64,000 nucleotides of DNA from Paenibacillus bovis (GTDB lineage: Bacteria > Bacillota > Bacilli > Paenibacillales > Paenibacillaceae): the NCBI RefSeq assembly GCF_001421015.2, contig NZ_CP013023.1:1357501-1421500 (forward strand), written 5' to 3'. Below the pieces are notes generated by a model that was given only the letters and a program-made list of their open reading frames with translations, searched no databases and was not told the DNA's origin. The position numbers were made by a program, and so were the translations under genes. Shown piece by piece: positions 21,842 through 62,350 of the stretch; position 1 is the stretch's first letter; each line of letters starts with the position of its first letter.

Positions 21842-21878
21842 GTGTAATGTAGCTTAGAGCGATGCAACAATTGAATGA

Positions 21879-21945
21879 CTCGTATAAAACCGGGAATACG
21901 GCCCGGAAGTTTCTACCCGGAAACCGTAAATTTCCGGACTACGAG
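21879..21945 (+). ncRNA. Guanine riboswitch aptamer
   Basis: This is a purine riboswitch with P1 CTCGTA/TACGAG, conserved J1/2 TATAA, loop L2 GAATACGG in the CCGGG/CCCGG P2, J2/3 AGTTTCTACC, L3 ACCGTAA in P3, and J3/1 GGACTAC. The ligand-reading position in J3/1 is C (GACTA), which selects guanine or hypoxanthine rather than adenine. A terminator follows at 22085, so guanine should switch off the purE operon by premature termination. Confidence 0.95.
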
Positions 21946-22084
21946 GGTGAACAGCGAATGGCAGTCCTAATCATATATTGGTACGAACAAATGCAGCCAG
22001 CCTACTCTCCTACAGAGTCGGCAGTAGCGTTGTGTAAGACCGATAGATATGAATAGTGGAGCAGATGCCGCTGCACCCGGTACG

Positions 22085-26269: not shown

Positions 26270-26375
26270 TTGCTGAAATTGGCTGTGGTGGAGCAGGTTG
26301 ATAGACAGCAATTTGTATGGTTGATATCCGCTGCTCAGGGATGGGCAAAGTAGCAGCATAGTTGTTGGTCATTAC

Positions 26376-26511
26376 ACCGCTGCGGAGAAGGAATAGGCCT
26401 GCGATCGCCCGGTTGAAATCAGGGGCCTTCCAAATGGTAGACCCGTGTAGCGGAAGGCCCCTGATTTCAAAAAGCGATCTCCGGCCTATCTCCTTCTCCT
26501 TCGCTCCGGTG
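26376..26511. repeat. Hairpin element A, copy 1 (A1)
   Basis: This is a 136-base near-complete inverted repeat between purC and purS. Nested arms are GGAGAAGGA/TCCTTCTCC, TAGGCC/GGCCTA, GATCGC/GCGATC and TGAAATCAGGGGCCTTCC with its complement. The terminal loop contains GGTAGACCCGTGTAG. A2 (31718) has the same layout and loop with compensatory stem changes, and A3 (61472) is more distant. The bases around A1 from 26270 to 26762 hold no recognised gene. Confidence 0.85.
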
Positions 26512-26762
26512 CTTTTTAGTCAAGTTGGTGCAGACTACGGATGATTACATCATGCCGCCCATTCCACCCGCTGAAATACGGTGCTTCCTTGGAAACGTCA
26601 GTATCTCAATGCTGAGAATTTAAATTATTCCTTACGATATACAAGCACGACTATTGCTATCGGTGAGCATCGTCATCTATAGACAAGCAATATGTACCGT
26701 ATTCTTATGCAGTTCATGGTTCCTAAACAATCTAGAACAAACGGTCAGGCTGCTCATCCGCC

Positions 26763-26890
26763 GAGCGGAGGGAACGGAATCGTTCCGAAAGGAGCCTTTA
26801 TGATCGGATATTGTCCGCAGCAAGCGGACGTTCAAAAATATCCGAATCATAACAGCGACTGCAGGAATGATCCGTACCCGCAGCGCTGTC
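26763..26890. repeat. Hairpin element B, copy 1 (B1)
   Basis: The outer arms GGGAACGGAATCGTTCC and GGAATGATCCGTACCC pair with a single unpaired A. The inner arm GGATATT/AATATCC encloses a small hairpin GTCCGC-AGCAA-GCGGAC followed by an unpaired GTTCAAA. It starts GCGGAGGGAA and ends CCCGCAGCGCTG, as in B2. It lies 158 bases before purS. No gene is credible here. Confidence 0.85.
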
Positions 26891-27048
26891 TCTAAACAGT
26901 ATCTGCCTTTTCATTTATAAAAGAAACACTATTCAAGAACGTCAAAGCGCCAAAGCCTGCAATCTGCAGCATGCTCAGCAAAGCAATACCACGCAATACC
27001 GTATTCACTCATTCAAGCATCATCATCCCAAGGAGGAACGAGAAGATT

Positions 27049-27294
27049 ATGATCAAAGCGACAGTCTACGTTACCATCAAAGAAAGCGTGCTTGACCCAC
27101 AGGGAGCTACTGTACAGGGCGCGCTGCATTCTCTTGGATTTAATGAAGTGGAAAGTGTACGTATCGGTAAATACATGGAGATCCAATTGGACACGGACAA
27201 CCGTGACGAAGCGGAGGAACGCCTGAAAGTGATGTGCGAGAAGCTGCTTGCGAACACCGTCGTTGAAAACTACCGATTCGAACTGGAGGGTTAA
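27049..27294 (+). CDS. purS: FGAM synthase, PurS subunit
   Basis: PurS is the small subunit that bridges PurQ and PurL in formylglycinamidine ribonucleotide synthase. The 81-residue protein has the family features [20 protein letters not shown] and VRIGKYMEI. The open frame extends upstream, but AGGAGG precedes ATG 27049 and this gives the normal length. It lies four bases before purQ. Confidence 0.96.
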
Positions 27295-27298
27295 TTCC

Positions 27299-27988
27299 AT
27301 GAAATTTGCGGTACTGGTATTCCCGGGTTCCAACTGTGATATCGACTGCTTCAAGGCAGTGGAAGAGACGATTGGCGAACCGGTTGATTATGTGTGGCAT
27401 ACGGCGACAGACCTGTCGGCTTATGATTGTATCTTGGTTCCTGGCGGATTCTCTTACGGCGATTACCTGCGTTGCGGTGCTATTTCGCAGTTCGCACCGG
27501 TGATGGCAGAAGTAGCCAAAGCGGCAGAACAGGGCAAATACGTACTGGGCATCTGCAATGGTTTCCAGATTCTGACCGAAGCACGCCTGCTGCCAGGCGC
27601 ACTGCTGCGCAACGGATCGATGAAGTTCCGCTGTCATGATGTGGTACTGACTGTAACGAATAACCAAACGCCATTCACGCTCGATTATGAGCAGGGTGAA
27701 GAGATTGTTATCCCGATTGCTCACGGCGAAGGCAACTACTACTGCGACGAAGCAACACTGGAGCAGATGAAAGCCAATAATCAAATCGTATTCCAGTATG
27801 GCGACAATCCAAACGGCTCCCTGCATGATATCGCAGGTATTAGTAATGAGCGCGGTAATGTAGTCGGCATGATGCCGCATCCGGAGCGCGCGGTCAATGA
27901 ACTGCTCGGCTCGACAGACGGCAAGAAAATGTTCACATCTATTTTAAAAGCCTGGAGGGATCAACATGACGCAGCAAACATCCGTTAA
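27299..27988 (+). CDS. purQ: FGAM synthase, PurQ glutaminase subunit
   Basis: PurQ releases ammonia from glutamine for PurL. The 229-residue class I glutamine amidotransferase has the nucleophile Cys86 in GICNGFQ and the partner residues His194 and Glu196 in PHPER. FPGSNCD and [12 protein letters not shown] are PurQ hallmarks. GGAGGG precedes ATG 27299. The 3' end overlaps purL by 23 bases. Confidence 0.96.
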
Positions 27989-30215
27989 GGAACCGACGGC
28001 GGAGCAAGTCGCAGACCAGCAGTTATACAAACAAATGGGTGTATCCGACACCGAGTTTGATTTGATCTGCGGTTTCCTCGGACGTAAACCGAACTACACG
28101 GAAATCGGCGTATTCAGTGTAATGTGGTCGGAACATTGCGCGTACAAAAACTCCAAGCCGCTGCTCAGACGTTTCCCGACCGATGGCCCGCGTGTCCTGA
28201 TGGGACCGGGCGAAGGTGCAGGAATCGTGGATATCGGCGACAACCAGGCTGTTGTATTCAAGATTGAAAGTCATAACCATCCATCCGCAGTCGAACCTTA
28301 TCAGGGTGCAGCGACAGGCGTAGGCGGCATTATCCGGGATATCTTCTCCATGGGTGCGCGTCCGATCGCTTCTCTGAATTCCCTGCGTTTTGGCAAGCTG
28401 GAGAGCGACCGGGTCAAATACCTGTTCGAGCATGTGGTAGGCGGTATCGCCGGTTACGGCAACTGTATCGGCATCCCAACGGTAGGCGGCGAAGTGATGT
28501 TCGACGAGAGCTACGAAGGCAATCCGCTCGTCAACGCGATGTGTGTTGGTCTGATCGATCATGACAAAATCCAGCGCGGCGTAGCCAAAGGGGTAGGTAA
28601 CCCGGTCTTTTATGTAGGCCCTCCAACCGGTCGTGACGGTATCCACGGAGCAACCTTTGCTTCCGAAGAGCTGACCGAGGAATCCGAAGCGCGCAAGACA
28701 GCAGTACAGGTCGGCGATCCTTTTATGGAGAAGCTGGTTATGGAATCCTGTCTGGAACTGATCGACTCCGGCATCGTGCTTGGTATTCAGGATATGGGTG
28801 CAGCCGGTCTGACCTGCTCCAGCGCCGAAATGGCGAGCAAGGCGGGCAATGGCCTGGAACTGTATCTGGATCAGGTGCCGCAGCGTGAAGACGGTATGAC
28901 TCCTTATGAAATGATGCTGTCCGAATCCCAGGAACGTATGCTGTTCGTCGTAGAACCCAAAGACGAAGCGCAGGCGATGGAGATTTTCGAACGTTGGGGC
29001 GTAATCTGCGCCAAGGTTGGTAAAGTTACCGATGACGGTCGTCTCAAGCTGTATCACCATGGCGAAGTAGTCGGCGATATGCCGGTACATGCGCTGGTAG
29101 ATGAGTGTCCGGTCTATAATAAGCCTTCTTCGGTTCCGGCTTATTATGAGCAAATGGCCCATATCGATACAGCTGCTTATAACGAAATCACGGATCTGGG
29201 CGGTGCGCTCAAGTCTGTACTCGCTTCTCCGACGGTAGCGAGCAAGGCATGGGTGTATGACCAGTATGATTATATGGTGCGTACGAGCACGGCAGTTCGT
29301 CCGGGATCGGATGCAGCGGTAGTACTCGTCAATGGCACACGCAAAGCACTTGCGATGACAACAGACTGCAACTCCCGCTTTGTCTATCTCGATCCGGAAG
29401 TGGGCGGCAAAATTGCTGTCAGCGAAGCAGCACGTAATATTGTCTGCTCCGGTGCCGAGCCGCTGGCCATTACGGATAACCTGAACTTTGGCAGCCCGGA
29501 GAAACCAGAGATTTTCTGGCAAATGGAACAATCCGTTGACGGTATGGCAACAGCCTGCCGGGCACTGGAAACGCCGGTTATCGGCGGTAATGTCAGCCTT
29601 TATAATGAAAATACACGTGGTGCCATCTATCCGACACCAGTAGTGGGTATGGTCGGTCTGGTGCATGATACAGATCATATTACGACGCAAGGCTTTAAGC
29701 AGGATGGCGATGTGATCTTCCTGCTGGGTGAGACCAAGGCAGAGCTGGGCGGCAGCGAATTCCAGTACATCGTACATGGCAAGACCGAGGGCCGTCCGCC
29801 AGCACTCGATCTGGTCATTGAGAAGCAATTGCTGGATGGTGTACTGAGTTCGATCCAGAGTGGTCTGGTACAGTCTGCACATGACCTGTCCGAAGGCGGT
29901 CTGGCAGTAGCACTGGCTGAATCCTGCATCAGCGGCAAGCTGGGCGCAGAGATTACGCTGGAAAGCGGCGGCCTGCGCAATGACCATCTGCTGTTCAGTG
30001 AAAGTCAATCCCGTATCCTCTTGTCCGCATCTGCGGCACAGGCGGATGCACTGGCAAGCAAACTGGCCGAGCAGGGTGTACCTGCCCGCCGCATCGGTAA
30101 AGTAACATCGGCAGCACAACTACAAATCACAGTGGACGGCAAACAAGTCCTGGCGGAAGAGGTAAGCAGTCTGCGCCAGGTCTGGGAGGATGCGATTCCA
30201 TGTCTGATGAATTAA
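27966..30215 (+). CDS. purL: FGAM synthase, PurL catalytic subunit
   Basis: PurL converts FGAR and ammonia to FGAM with ATP. The 749-residue protein is the small Bacillus-type PurL that needs PurS and PurQ. It has [11 protein letters not shown], the metal-binding [20 protein letters not shown] and [24 protein letters not shown] precedes the ATG inside purQ, so translation is coupled. The C-terminus overlaps purF by 16 bases. The long antisense open frame (28023-30119) is a coding shadow. Confidence 0.97.
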
Positions 30216-31678
30216 ATAATCAGCCGCTCTGGACCGGCGACTACTATAATCAGGGAACCGGTCCGAACGATATTTTTGATACATTAAAAGAGGAATGCGG
30301 CGTCTTCGGTGTCTACGGACACTCGGGGGCCGCGTCCCTTTCTTATTATGGTCTGCATGCGCTTCAGCACCGTGGTGAAGAAAGCTGCGGGATCTGTGTC
30401 AGCGACCATACCGAATTCCATTATCACCGCGGTATGGGACTGGTCAAGGAAGTATTCGATAAAGAGACAATGGCTACGTTGACCGGCGATATCTCGATCG
30501 GTCATGTACGCTACTCGACCAGCGGCAGCAGCCATCTGGGCAATGCCCAGCCGCTCGTTTTCCGTTATCGTGCAGGCGAACTGGCACTGGCGACCAACGG
30601 CAACATCGTCAATGCACCGCAGATCCGGCGCGAGCTGGAGGAGATGGGTTCCATTTTCCAGACAACCAGTGATACGGAAGTGCTGGCGCATCTGATCGCC
30701 CGTTCATCGAAGCCACTGGTGGAAGCAGCCAAAGAGGCGTTCCGCCGGATTGTGGGCGGATTTGCCTTTATGATCATGACGAATGAGCAGTTGATCGTAG
30801 CTAGTGATCCGAATGGACTGCGTCCGCTGACGATGGGCAGACTGGGTGATGCATATATTTTCACCTCGGAGACCTGTGCGCTGGAGACGATTGGTGCAGA
30901 GATTGTCCGTGATGTGAAGCCCGGTGAACTGCTGGTACTGGATCAGAACGGACTGCATGAAGATTTCTACACCGAGCCGCAGCGCAAAGCGCTCTGCTCG
31001 ATGGAATATATTTATTTTGCCCGCCCGGATAGCGATATGAACGGTGCGAATTTGCATTCGGCACGCAAACGGATGGGCTCGATGATGGCTCGTGAATCCT
31101 TTATTGATGCAGACCTGGTGACCGGTGTACCGGATTCCAGTATTTCGGCAGCGATCGGTTACGCCGAGCAGACGGGCATTCCTTATGAGCTGGGCATGAT
31201 CAAAAACAAATACACTGGCCGTACCTTTATCCAGCCGAGTCAGGAACTGCGCGAGCAGGGTGTCAAAATGAAGCTGAGCGCGGTGCGCCGCGTCGTCGAA
31301 GGCAAACGTGTCGTCATGATCGATGATTCCATTGTGCGAGGAACAACCTCCCGCCGGATCGTGAATATGCTGCGTGATGCCGGAGCGATCGAAGTGCATG
31401 TACGGATTACTTCGCCTCCTTTCAAAAATCCATGCTTCTACGGGATTGATACTCCGGATCGTCGTGATCTGATTGCTTCGTCCAAGACAGTGGAGGAGAT
31501 CCGACAGGAAATTAATGCGGATTCACTCGCTTTTCTCAGCCGGGAAGGATTGATTGAAGCCGTTGGTGGAGACAACAAGGACGATTATAAAGGCGGCATG
31601 TGTATGGCCTGCTTTGACAACGATTATCCCACCCAGACCGATTTCGGCGGCGAAGAACAATTCGGCTGCGGGTGCTGA
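30200..31678 (+). CDS. purF: Amidophosphoribosyltransferase
   Basis: PurF makes phosphoribosylamine from PRPP and glutamine, the first committed step. The 492-residue protein carries a propeptide before the nucleophile Cys33 ([12 protein letters not shown]) that would be removed to expose the cysteine. At 32 residues it is longer than the 11-residue Bacillus propeptide as recalled. The PRPP site is [15 protein letters not shown]-terminal cysteines ([11 protein letters not shown]) fit the Fe-S-containing Bacillus type. A 776-base gap with two hairpin elements follows. Confidence 0.96.
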
Positions 31679-31717
31679 ACTGCGCCAGGTTTCGGAACGA
31701 TGGATGGCGGTGAGAGG

Positions 31718-31852
31718 GTCCGCTGCGGGGAAGGAATAGGCCTGCGATCGCCCGGTTGAAATAGGGGGCCTTTGAATAGGTAGACCCGTGTAGAGGAAGG
31801 CCCCCGATTTCAAAAGGCGATCTCCGGTCTATTTCCTTCCCCTCCGCTCCGC
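31718..31852. repeat. Hairpin element A, copy 2 (A2)
   Basis: This copy of A1 lies 40 bases after purF. Arms GGGGAAGGAATAG/CTATTTCCTTCCCC, GCGATCG/GGCGATC and TGAAAT...ATTTCA enclose the same loop GGTAGACCCGTGTAG. Compared with A1, one outer pair has changed from A-T to G-C on both strands. The bases 31853-32262 after it hold AT-rich DNA and no recognised gene. Confidence 0.85.
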
Positions 31853-32262
31853 ACTCCCCGCCCCATGTTCCTGAGACCCTGGCGGTTTCAGAACCCTTGG
31901 GGGTAAAGGGGAGAGAAAAGAAAAGTAGGCGAGAATAAGAGAAACTGGTTAGACTGCTTTGCAGGAGAGAATGTTTTAGAAATTAAGGGCTTTGATTTTA
32001 TTTGATAGGATTTATGTTTTACTAGTGAGAATAGGGATGTTTTGTAAAGATGATAGATGTAAGAGTTGATGAAATAAAAAATCAACGATACAGCCTCTTA
32101 ATCCTTCTTAAAATCACAGTTTTACAAATCAAAACTAAACCAGATTCATCCAAACCCTACAATTTAAATAGCAATAGCCAGATACGTAATCTTTTTAAAA
32201 CTGAAATCTCAATCTTATGGACGGCGAGTGGATATTTGGAAGTAGGGGTGCTTTGTGCTCCC

Positions 32263-32388
32263 AGCGGAGGGAATGGAATCGTTCAGGAAGGAGCATTTGC
32301 AGGCTGACTTTTGACTGCGAATGCAGTCGTTCCCAAAAAGTCAGCCTGCAACGGCGACGCCCGAACGATCCATTCCCGCAGCGCTGTA
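32263..32388. repeat. Hairpin element B, copy 2 (B2)
   Basis: Outer arms GGGAATGGAATCGTTC and GAACGATCCATTCCC pair perfectly except for one bulged A. The inner arms TGCAGGCTGACTTTT/AAAAGTCAGCCTGCA enclose a small hairpin ACTGC-GAAT-GCAGT followed by the unpaired CGTTCCC. Relative to B1, the T-A pair in AATGGA/TCCATT is C-G in AACGGA/TCCGT. It lies 66 bases before purM. Confidence 0.85.
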
Positions 32389-32454
32389 GCACGAGAACGC
32401 CAATTCTTCCAACCCTCCCACGCGCCACTGTCCAAAGAACCCACGAAAGGTGCG

Positions 32455-61324: not shown

Positions 61325-61471
61325 TGCGTACATTTCTGCTGCATGGATGATCTACGTGACATATAGGGTAGTGCAGGTTGTGTTGTGCTTTGGGCTCTGT
61401 TGGTTCTATTTGTTCTGGATAGGGAAAGGTTGATTAGTTTTACATAAAGTGTGAATGGGACGCATAGGATG

Positions 61472-61597
61472 GCATCCGCTCCGGAAAGGAATAGGAGCAC
61501 GTCCTCCGGTTAAGCCTGGAGATCCTGAATTGGATAGAGTAAAGGAGGATCTCCAGGCTTAAATGTCGTCCTTTGCTCCTATTTCCTTTCCTGCGCT
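61472..61597. repeat. Hairpin element A, copy 3 (A3)
   Basis: Outer arms GGAAAGGAATAGGAGCA and TGCTCCTATTTCCTTTCC, and inner arms TAAGCCTGGAGATCCT and AGGATCTCCAGGCTTA, rebuild the two-stem plan of A1 and A2 with different bases. The shared wording is CCGCT-CGG-AAGGAATAGG at the start. The loop differs from A1 and A2. Confidence 0.75.
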
Positions 61598-61725
61598 CTG
61601 TGCAGGGAGTATTTGTACCGCTCGCTGTCTGGTTGTACGATTCTCTATGAGCATTCAACTTGAATGTTGACAGTAAAGGTGCATAGTTTAAATATTGCAG
61701 CGACAGGTTGAAGGGGCGAAAATGC

Positions 61726-61789
61726 GGAAGCAAGGAAGCAAGGAAGCAAGGAAGCAAGGAAGCAAGGAAGCAAGGAAGCAAGGAAGCAA
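61726..61789. repeat. Simple tandem repeat, 8-base unit
   Basis: Eight perfect copies of GGAAGCAA occur in noncoding DNA between A3 and B3. Arrays like this change length by slippage. Confidence 0.95.
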
Positions 61790-61971
61790 GGAGATAGGTG
61801 AAAGTTAAAAAGAAGGTAAAAAAGCAATATCAACAGGGTTAGAATAAGCTAAAAACACAGTAGAGAAACTTCAACGAATAAGATCGAGATTTTTGCCGTT
61901 GATTTTAAGTGTTAAATCTTAAATCTTGAATTTTGATCTTTAGTCTTAAACCGAATGGTATAAATTCCGCT

Positions 61972-62096
61972 GAGCGCAGGAAAAGGAATCGTGCTGAAGC
62001 TCTCCTTTAAGATCGTCTATCCACTGCTGCAAGCAGTTATTCAGGATAGACGATCTTAACAGAGAGCGGAAGTACGATCCTTTTACGAAGCGTCTG
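61972..62096. repeat. Hairpin element B, copy 3 (B3)
   Basis: Outer arms AAAAGGAATCGT and ACGATCCTTTT (one bulged A, as in B1 and B2) and inner arms TTAAGATCGTCTATCC and GGATAGACGATCTTAA enclose a small hairpin ACTGC-TGCAA-GCAGT followed by the unpaired TATTCA. This is the same plan as B1 and B2. Confidence 0.8.
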
Positions 62097-62350
62097 CTGC
62101 TCCAGCACTCTATTTCCCCGAGTAGCTTCCTCTTGTCCAAGCAGTTATTCAAGATAGACAATCTCAACAAAGAATGGAAGTACGATCGTTTTACGAAGCG
62201 TCTGCTGCTCCAGCACTCTATTCCCCGAGTAGCGCCCTCTTGTGCAAGCAGTTGTTCAGGATAGACAATCTCAACAGAGAATGGAAGTACGATCGTTTTA
62301 CGAAGCATCTGCTGCTCCAGTACCCTATTCCCCCAAGTAGCTCCCTGTTT
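62030..62350. repeat. Three ~107-base tandem repeats derived from element B3
   Basis: Units start at 62030, 62138 and 62245, each with CAAGCAGTT. They continue through the 3' half of B3 (GGATAGACRATCT, AAGTACGATC, TTTTACGAAGC) and CTGCTGCTCCAG. The second and third copies lack the 5' arm, so only the first folds as a full B element. Open frames here on both strands are periodic artefacts. No real gene lies in 61325-62553. Confidence 0.85.

Follow-up and report, generated by a model that had tools for sequence, protein, structure and literature searches.

Dispersed hairpins between purine genes and elsewhere in Paenibacillaceae: a repeat family of putative structured mRNA elements

Hairpins of the purine gene cluster

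The window analysed here, a stretch of 64,000 nucleotides (nt) of Paenibacillus bovis (contig NZ_CP013023.1, positions 1,357,501 to 1,421,500), comes from a 5.5-Mb genome, G000, of the genus labelled g1 in our sampling, and it contains a purine gene cluster whose members purC, purS, purF and purM are named from our reading of the open frames. Two long hairpins lie between these genes on the forward strand: element B1 (26756..26893), between purC and purS and about 155 nt upstream of purS, and element B2 (32255..32391), between purF and purM, with the likely start of purM about 63 nt downstream. A third, B3 (61965..62100), is on the same strand but outside the purine cluster, elsewhere in the window. 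An earlier note on this DNA had described all three as one family of functional RNA hairpins and had placed them within 26763..32388, an interval beyond which B3 actually lies.

R1, a covariance model built from 12 B-type copies and scored in bits, gives 127.9 for B1, 117.4 for B2 and 123.8 for B3. Each is preceded by a hairpin on the reverse strand that the same model finds: at 26370..26513, just downstream of purC (68.1 bits), at 31713..31856, downstream of purF (67.4 bits), and at 61469..61605 (80.0 bits). The note had set B apart as a second family, yet these partners, presumably its element A, are recognized by a model made from B and are each paired with a B. The spacers of the three pairs occupy 26514..26755 (242 nt), 31857..32254 (398 nt) and 61606..61964 (359 nt). 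At the third pair a tandem array on the forward strand (62030..62346; period 107 nt, 2.9 copies at 90%) is made up of the 3′ half of B3 and its 3′ flank.

All six window copies fold as a single long hairpin. RNA fold z-scores are –8.2 (B1), –12.2 (B2) and –8.8 (B3), and –9.4, –5.9 and –9.1 for their respective partners; for each of the three B elements, none of 200 dinucleotide shuffles folded as well. The outer stem characteristic of the family bears a fixed bulged A; inside it follow an asymmetric internal loop, an inner stem that varies and an apical hairpin, and AGCG usually marks both borders. The particulars given in the earlier note were recovered in B1, B2 and B3 alike: the outer stem with one unpaired A (GGA-A-TC opposite GATCC), the inner stem capped by an apical hairpin, with arms GTCCGC, GACTGC and ACTGC respectively, and a GTTC-like unpaired stretch limited to the 3′ side.

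A dispersed family arranged in divergent pairs

A blastn search with B1 finds 12 places in G000. R1 returns 108 rows. In 23 of them a palindrome already counted is read on its opposite strand, so that 85 distinct places remain, two of them weak (38.8 and 32.2 bits). These counts are lower bounds, since 150 of 2324 candidates were scored, and with two partners added by a further search the family occupies at least 87 places at 66 sites. The unit in G000 is an imperfect palindrome of ~137 nt, and elements measure about 120–150 nt overall; both AGCG motifs could be anchored in 62 of the 85 copies, and in 60 of these 62 the span from AGCG to AGCG is 117–133 nt.

Neighbouring copies less than 700 nt apart face away from each other in every case. 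All 20 such neighbours in G000 follow the order minus then plus, so that 20 of the 66 sites are divergent pairs, with spacers of 84–555 nt; one pair takes in the 38.8-bit member. The note's hairpins stand, but as part of something it had not seen, a family of at least 87 places whose members, at those 20 sites, pair with hairpins of their own kind on the other strand. The spacers are mutually unrelated, with no blastn match among the 20 at E 0.01, that of the purC–purS pair included. Five other congeners contain at least 13 close pairs, all minus then plus, in a count made by eye on incomplete rows. As a strict rule beyond the window's genus the pair order fails, because genomes of genus g7 carry same-orientation tandems too. 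An origin of the partners by recent inverted duplication, or their maintenance by mutual pairing, was also rejected: stem identity within pairs is not clearly above that of shuffled partners (181, 795 and 1225 of 2000 shuffles reach it). Identity in the loops does exceed that of shuffled partners (reached by 8 of 2000 shuffles; 19 of the 20 pairs used). The single plus-then-minus neighbour in G000 is 1,480 nt apart, and the 385-amino-acid open frame within this interval, considered as a possible autonomous parent, is by eye unlike a transposase. Several pair spacers contain short tandem repeats of 5–10 nt, for example an 8-nt microsatellite at window 61726-61792 and others in L035, L050, L076 and L097.

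In the initial alignment of 12 B-type copies there was compensatory change in 23 of 42 pairs. Over the 85 G000 copies aligned with R1, 92.6% of cells are standard pairs, compared with 36–50% when the partners are slid by one to three columns, and two-sided changes occur at 37 of the 42 pairs, in 668 cells against 198 in shuffles. Since related copies were aligned by fitting them to the model, counts of pairing and of the bulge are biased towards structure; the argument for structure lies in the gap between the observed pairing and the slid controls. Pairing reaches 97.2% and 97.8% in the two main helices and 85.3% in the apical one, but only 67.6% in the terminal AGCG/CGCT helix. The bulged base is A in 81 of the 85 copies (C in one, G in one, a gap in two), and 60 of them have TTC among the unpaired bases on the 3′ side of the apex.

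We also searched 79 of 80 loci found by a pattern for one element subtype, almost all of them from named Paenibacillus species, leaving out L190; 40 further loci were scanned for pur motifs, and of these L272 alone was searched in part with R1. Under the same model, 80 distinct rows from the named loci are 88.6% paired and have two-sided changes at 34 of 42 pairs. The bulge in 81 copies is A in 72, G in five, T in one and a gap in three, and at the apex the unpaired bases on the 3′ side are not GTTC but, for example, AATCAAAA. Together with the orthologous comparisons below, the covariation and the bulge counts of the 85 G000 copies bear out the earlier claim that stems vary with compensation while the asymmetric unpaired bases persist; the note had named genome-wide copies lacking the bulge as a ground for refutation, and this check did not refute it, 81 of 85 copies keeping the A.

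Conservation at orthologous sites and across genera

Orthologous places in the sister species G004 and G011 were located via joined coding flanks. Identity was determined in 28 of 33 comparisons, at 17 of 18 sites, five comparisons with element gaps of at least 15 being left out; the figure for the elements includes, and is lowered by, two L060 comparisons and L065, in which the element aligned poorly. The elements are 91.9% identical (4385/4770), compared with 83.3% for the spacers (2633/3160), 82.3% for flanks within 150 nt and 84.7% for far flanks, and 23 of the 28 comparisons show a higher identity for the element than for the far flank. At purC–purS, identity to G011 is 94.9% over the element and 74.3% over the spacer.

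For compensation we used 66 element comparisons, leaving out those with more than 8 gaps or below 75% identity, which favours conserved copies. Both sides of a pair changed with pairing kept in 32 cases, against a permutation mean of 5.4 and a maximum of 17 in 500 permutations, and 92 pairs were broken, against a mean of 151 and a minimum of 132; differences were seen at 291 of 2739 unpaired positions. Six of the double changes sit in the single L042/L127 comparison, and several may represent one event. The comparison points to selection acting, site by site, on the folding of the elements, and with the higher identity of the element it agrees with the earlier reading of a functional element.

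All 16 congeners have R1 matches at E 1e-4, from 2 to 104 each with opposite-strand readings included, and eight genomes have 10 or fewer. In wider scans with stricter filters, which scored 16 candidates per genome in the family and 8 in the class so that match numbers are lower bounds, R1 matched 114 of 197 sampled family genomes, in 12 of 19 genera, at E 1e-6, and 34 of 398 sampled class genomes at E 1e-7. Of these 34, 33 belong to the window's family, and the remaining one, G028, has a single match and belongs to another family of the same order. Nine loci from genera g1, g2, g7, g25 and g30 have the common architecture, the matches in the other genera resting on their E-value. In each of ten g7 genomes, blastn gave 41–45 matches with 40 candidates scored. 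The pattern search with one element subtype matched almost only Paenibacillus species, and purS of P. taichungensis is 92–99% identical to that of ten g7 genomes and 77% to that of G000; from the sequences we infer that g7 is Paenibacillus sensu stricto and the family Paenibacillaceae. In Paenibacillus genomes, two to four elements of the same orientation follow one another in tandem at L212 2196-2783, G114:C1:5421607-5422151 and G136:C1:6139115-6139483 and in L344, L345 and L346, and such arrays are found before purS too. L190 (JAHISY010000002.1), from a metagenome bin labelled Patescibacteria, matches the Paenibacillus element-core pattern, perhaps through contamination of the bin.

The purC–purS site can be followed furthest. 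R1 finds both partners there in G000, G004, G011 and G005. In G007 it finds the minus-strand partner only, a remnant of the other being visible by eye, and in G001 it has no match, a different, longer hairpin being visible by eye. All 10 g7 genomes tested carry a sense element that stops shortly before purS, with tandem sense copies in G054, G077 and G150, and 8 of the 10 have an inverted partner further upstream (two partial, one beyond three tandem sense copies), none being found in G067 and G150. The purS arrangement aligns among P. taichungensis, P. pabuli and P. xylanilyticus with the stems largely rewritten, the partner in P. xylanilyticus being weak (21.5 bits). The element before purS is retained at an orthologous position between two genera. 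One g2 genome has a weak element beside purS (23.8 bits), and no element was found next to purS in g25 (two genomes) or g30 (one genome). The purF–purM pair was considered as a second shared site across genera and rejected, since matches at that place in P. amylolyticus L192 do not exceed 7.3 bits; L272 has one sense element at purF–purM and no partner. In L104-L112, congeners without the purC–purS pair, a short conserved hairpin, CGTCCAAGCGTGTCCCGTCAGGGACGAAAGCGG-like and mostly with AGCG on both sides, is visible by eye upstream of purS (L113 is without it), and is perhaps a different regulatory element.

How the copies arrived is less directly visible. We compared 34 of the 66 sites with G004 or G011, mostly via match tables and seven as alignments or side by side, and saw no clean insertion among these 34. 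Most absences look like ragged deletions that have left stubs behind (L037, L064 and L045 in G011). The absence of L066 in G004 is near-clean, between AAGC repeats, and at L028 in G004 the intergenic region is without the whole pair; both fit loss or gain. L051 in G011 has a different upstream sequence, and the region of L033 is not traceable in G004. Flank identity suggests that G004 is the sister of G000, and if it is, loss would be a simpler explanation of the absences than gain.

Much of this could be left by a selfish, non-autonomous repeat without host function, similar to a miniature inverted-repeat transposable element (MITE): fossils or slow movers whose transposase is lost or supplied in trans and which have settled at the least harmful sites. 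Such a repeat would explain the dispersal over at least 87 places in G000 and over 41–45 matches in each of ten g7 genomes, the range of 2 to 104 matches among 16 congeners, the intergenic placement and the tandem copies in several g7 genomes. It would not lead us to expect that most orthologous copies exceed their flanks in conservation and do so with compensatory change, that the best paralogue of B1 found by blastn is only 77% identical, or that the compared sites offer mostly ragged deletions and no clean insertion. The Y1 transposase (PF01797) has no match in G000 and any match at all in only one of the 16 congeneric genomes, other transposases not having been searched for. We consider a purely selfish repeat unlikely. 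Because of the missing PF01797 match, an origin in G000 from repetitive extragenic palindromes (REPs) and REP-associated tyrosine transposases (RAYTs) was ruled out. Carriage by phages or plasmids was also rejected: one Paenibacillus copy has no phage match, B1 has no plasmid match, and the only plasmid-collection match is a 2.7-Mb P. cellulosilyticus replicon.

Gene context and the reading as RNA

The elements are intergenic and mostly co-directional with the genes. In the named Paenibacillus loci, where 77 of 96 matches were entered, three of them at locus edges, and where several loci are orthologous and hence not independent, 74 elements could be placed: 53 lie between two co-directional genes in sense, 9 are antisense to both, and 6 + 6 are mixed. 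From the 3′ end of the element to the next gene the median distance is 60.5 nt over all contexts, and in 51 of 81 a same-strand open frame with a ribosome-site-like motif begins 27–131 nt downstream (within the 10–180 nt inspected). For G000, where gene calls came from a simple custom caller and 64 of the 66 sites were used, a tally from the site rows gives 25 co-directional and 6 opposed elements among singles between co-directional genes.

A hairpin at such a position, followed by a G-poor tail, might be expected to stop transcripts, as a terminator or a Rho-dependent attenuator. The first 25 nt 3′ of the G000 elements are indeed C-rich and G-poor (C 0.37 and 0.34, G 0.11 and 0.12, for pairs and singles respectively), but TTTTT occurs within them in none of the 85 copies, and in 6 of 70 copies of Paenibacillus s.s. 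The missing U-tract rules out intrinsic terminators, and on this point the earlier note, which had excluded a plain terminator, was right. In G000 and Paenibacillus s.s. alike the first 25 nt of the 3′ flank are poor in G (0.11–0.12), yet the flank is C-rich in G000 only and A/T-rich in Paenibacillus s.s., and the copies inside the pur cluster would silence purS or purM unless the stopping were conditional. Termination or attenuation is the least probable of the explanations that we have weighed. The C-over-G skew in G000 (0.37 versus 0.11) begins just 3′ of the element, fades over about 100 nt, and is present on both outer sides of pairs.

Whether the fold is formed by RNA or by DNA can be approached from the mismatches, read on the element strand in folds with G.U forbidden. 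Isolated helix mismatches in G000 are G.T in 32 cases and A.C in 10, divided 8:1 in A partners, 10:2 in B partners and 14:7 in singles. In named Paenibacillus the numbers are 66 and 4, with 61 of one type, 5′G-3′T, and columns with more G.T than A.C outnumber the reverse by 20 to 7 (p = 0.0096). The excess of G.T over A.C is modest support for RNA folding on the element strand.

The same count bears on the idea that the element is a folded single-stranded DNA substrate, recognized by a recombinase or HUH-type enzyme from its shape and extrahelical base. The attC sites of integrons, which are used in direct arrays by the integron integrase, are imperfect palindromes recognized in this way, by fold and extrahelical bases, and REPs offer a similar precedent. 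Variable yet paired stems, a fixed extrahelical A, an inverted pair arrangement and few wobble pairs (G.U 29 and A.C 31, about equal, in a model-based count of G000 singles) would all be natural for such a substrate. When the fold forbids G.U, however, G.T prevails by 32 to 10. Moreover, the elements form mostly inverted pairs without cassettes, not an attC-like direct array; most compared copies remain at orthologous sites; and no candidate enzyme was found, Y1_Tnp being absent in G000. We regard a single-stranded DNA substrate as highly improbable.

It is also very unlikely, in our judgement, that the family is a set of double-stranded sites for a chromosome-organizing or regulatory protein, comparable to gyrase at bacterial interspersed mosaic elements (BIMEs), with the palindrome as a dimer site and the pair as a boundary. 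A protein that reads the duplex would be blind to what is conserved, pairing that is kept while the stem sequence varies, and the orientation bias with transcription is a further point against it. High copy number, intergenic location, divergent pairs with variable spacers and a REP-like distribution, with 4 of 45 singles and 3 of 19 pairs between divergent genes, are what it has to recommend it.

We lean towards the explanation that the hairpins are a dispersed repeat of Paenibacillaceae, similar to enterobacterial repetitive intergenic consensus (ERIC) and bcr elements, that is probably retained as a putative structured intercistronic or leader mRNA element. The family has a common structure with covarying stems, a pair arrangement, a bias in position and orientation, and conservation at orthologous sites. 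The element would be transcribed as part of an mRNA and, folded between two cistrons or in the leader, would act in cis. As a strong hairpin that does not terminate, it may control stability, processing or read-through between neighbouring genes, by analogy with what ERIC and NEMIS reportedly do, and at the 20 of 66 G000 sites where a second, inverted copy faces away, a hairpin would stand at both ends of the intergenic stretch. The spread itself would be old, by a mobile or duplicative process that is no longer visible. The earlier reading as a functional RNA is supported in part: the compensated stems, the orthologous conservation and the non-terminator character agree with it, and the G.U excess points modestly to RNA over DNA.

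Several observations weigh against a retained mRNA element. The downstream genes are functionally mixed by eye, and sigma-70-like promoter sites upstream are not enriched over shuffles. In 5 of the 28 orthologous comparisons (two L060, one each L057, L065 and L042) the element falls below the far flank. Ten other congeners have no purC–purS element at E 0.1, so that the element is dispensable at that site. Palindrome-correcting template switching in replication could explain part of the compensated changes, although such correction would also be expected to erase the conserved bulge, which is still present. The wobble evidence has weak points as well: the column asymmetry in G000 is weak (16 versus 9, p = 0.115), the model-based count for named Paenibacillus has 62 of its 135 G.T cells in one column, one apical column there is reversed (4 versus 18), and wobble pairs are scarce (68 of 2,911 core cells), fewer than expected for freely evolving RNA.

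Among known systems, the NEMIS or Correia hairpins, MITEs adjoining genes and reported in Neisseria, are reportedly involved in RNase III processing of N. meningitidis mRNAs; they share with the present elements the position of a hairpin next to genes and differ in their Neisseria host, and no terminal duplication was seen in the present elements. ERIC elements are likewise imperfect palindromes. As far as the relevant passages of PMC2267715 go, ERIC occurs in E. coli, Yersinia and Vibrio as an intergenic sequence of ~127–140 bp forming one long hairpin, and in Yersinia is reported to regulate its neighbours as RNA hairpins. The present elements agree in length, intergenic position and copy number and differ, in a comparison by description and not by sequence, in the fixed bulged A and internal loops, the divergent pairs and the cross-genus orthologous retention. 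The bcr1–bcr18 repeats of the Bacillus cereus group, according to the sections of PMC3446304 concerned with them, are intergenic repeats of Firmicutes, too; some of them conserve a secondary structure, they are frequent in untranslated regions or operons, and in two strains 40–51% of copies were found within mRNA. Again by description and not by sequence, bcr1 is MITE-like and group-specific, while the Paenibacillaceae element spans genera and forms divergent pairs. REP/BIME sequences and REPINs with RAYTs appear, in the parts of PMC3116915 and PMC3733652 that deal with them, as high-copy extragenic palindromes and inverted doublets of 20–40-bp units with a GTAG or CGTC tag; here the ~137-nt unit is a complete hairpin with AGCG borders in 62 of 85 copies and no Y1 transposase in G000.

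We found no description of this hairpin family in the literature, mainly openly accessible articles, on Paenibacillus repeats and palindromes or on Firmicute imperfect palindromes, and the word Paenibacillus occurs 0 times in PMC3733652 and PMC2267715; the family is apparently undescribed. One might go further and see in it a new structured RNA class specific to Paenibacillaceae, with roughly a hundred copies per genome in rich clades, read by its shape and single bulged adenosine and not by its sequence, bracketing intergenic stretches as divergent pairs, and with purC–purS copies that predate the split of two genera. This is a possibility that we advance only tentatively. If true, it would imply that an RNA-binding partner or RNase is dedicated to the element and that mRNA is controlled at a further level across the genome. 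Whether dispersed palindromes such as REP, ERIC and BOX are junk or regulators has long been debated, and here a many-copy family combines selection on folding, divergent pairs, a fixed bulge and cross-genus retention of an operon position, which makes the question of function testable in one operon, purC–purS. For Paenibacillus, a widely studied genus, it is also an RNA-like family that had apparently not been described before.

A riboswitch or other known RNA was considered and rejected, since no Rfam 15 family reaches gathering level at the window elements. In six other loci Rfam 15 gave four sub-threshold matches (E 0.22–7), two of which overlap elements (CRISPR-DR57 in L153 and dinG in L028). 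Apart from the hairpins, the window contains a purine riboswitch aptamer at 21860-21961, upstream of the purine gene cluster.

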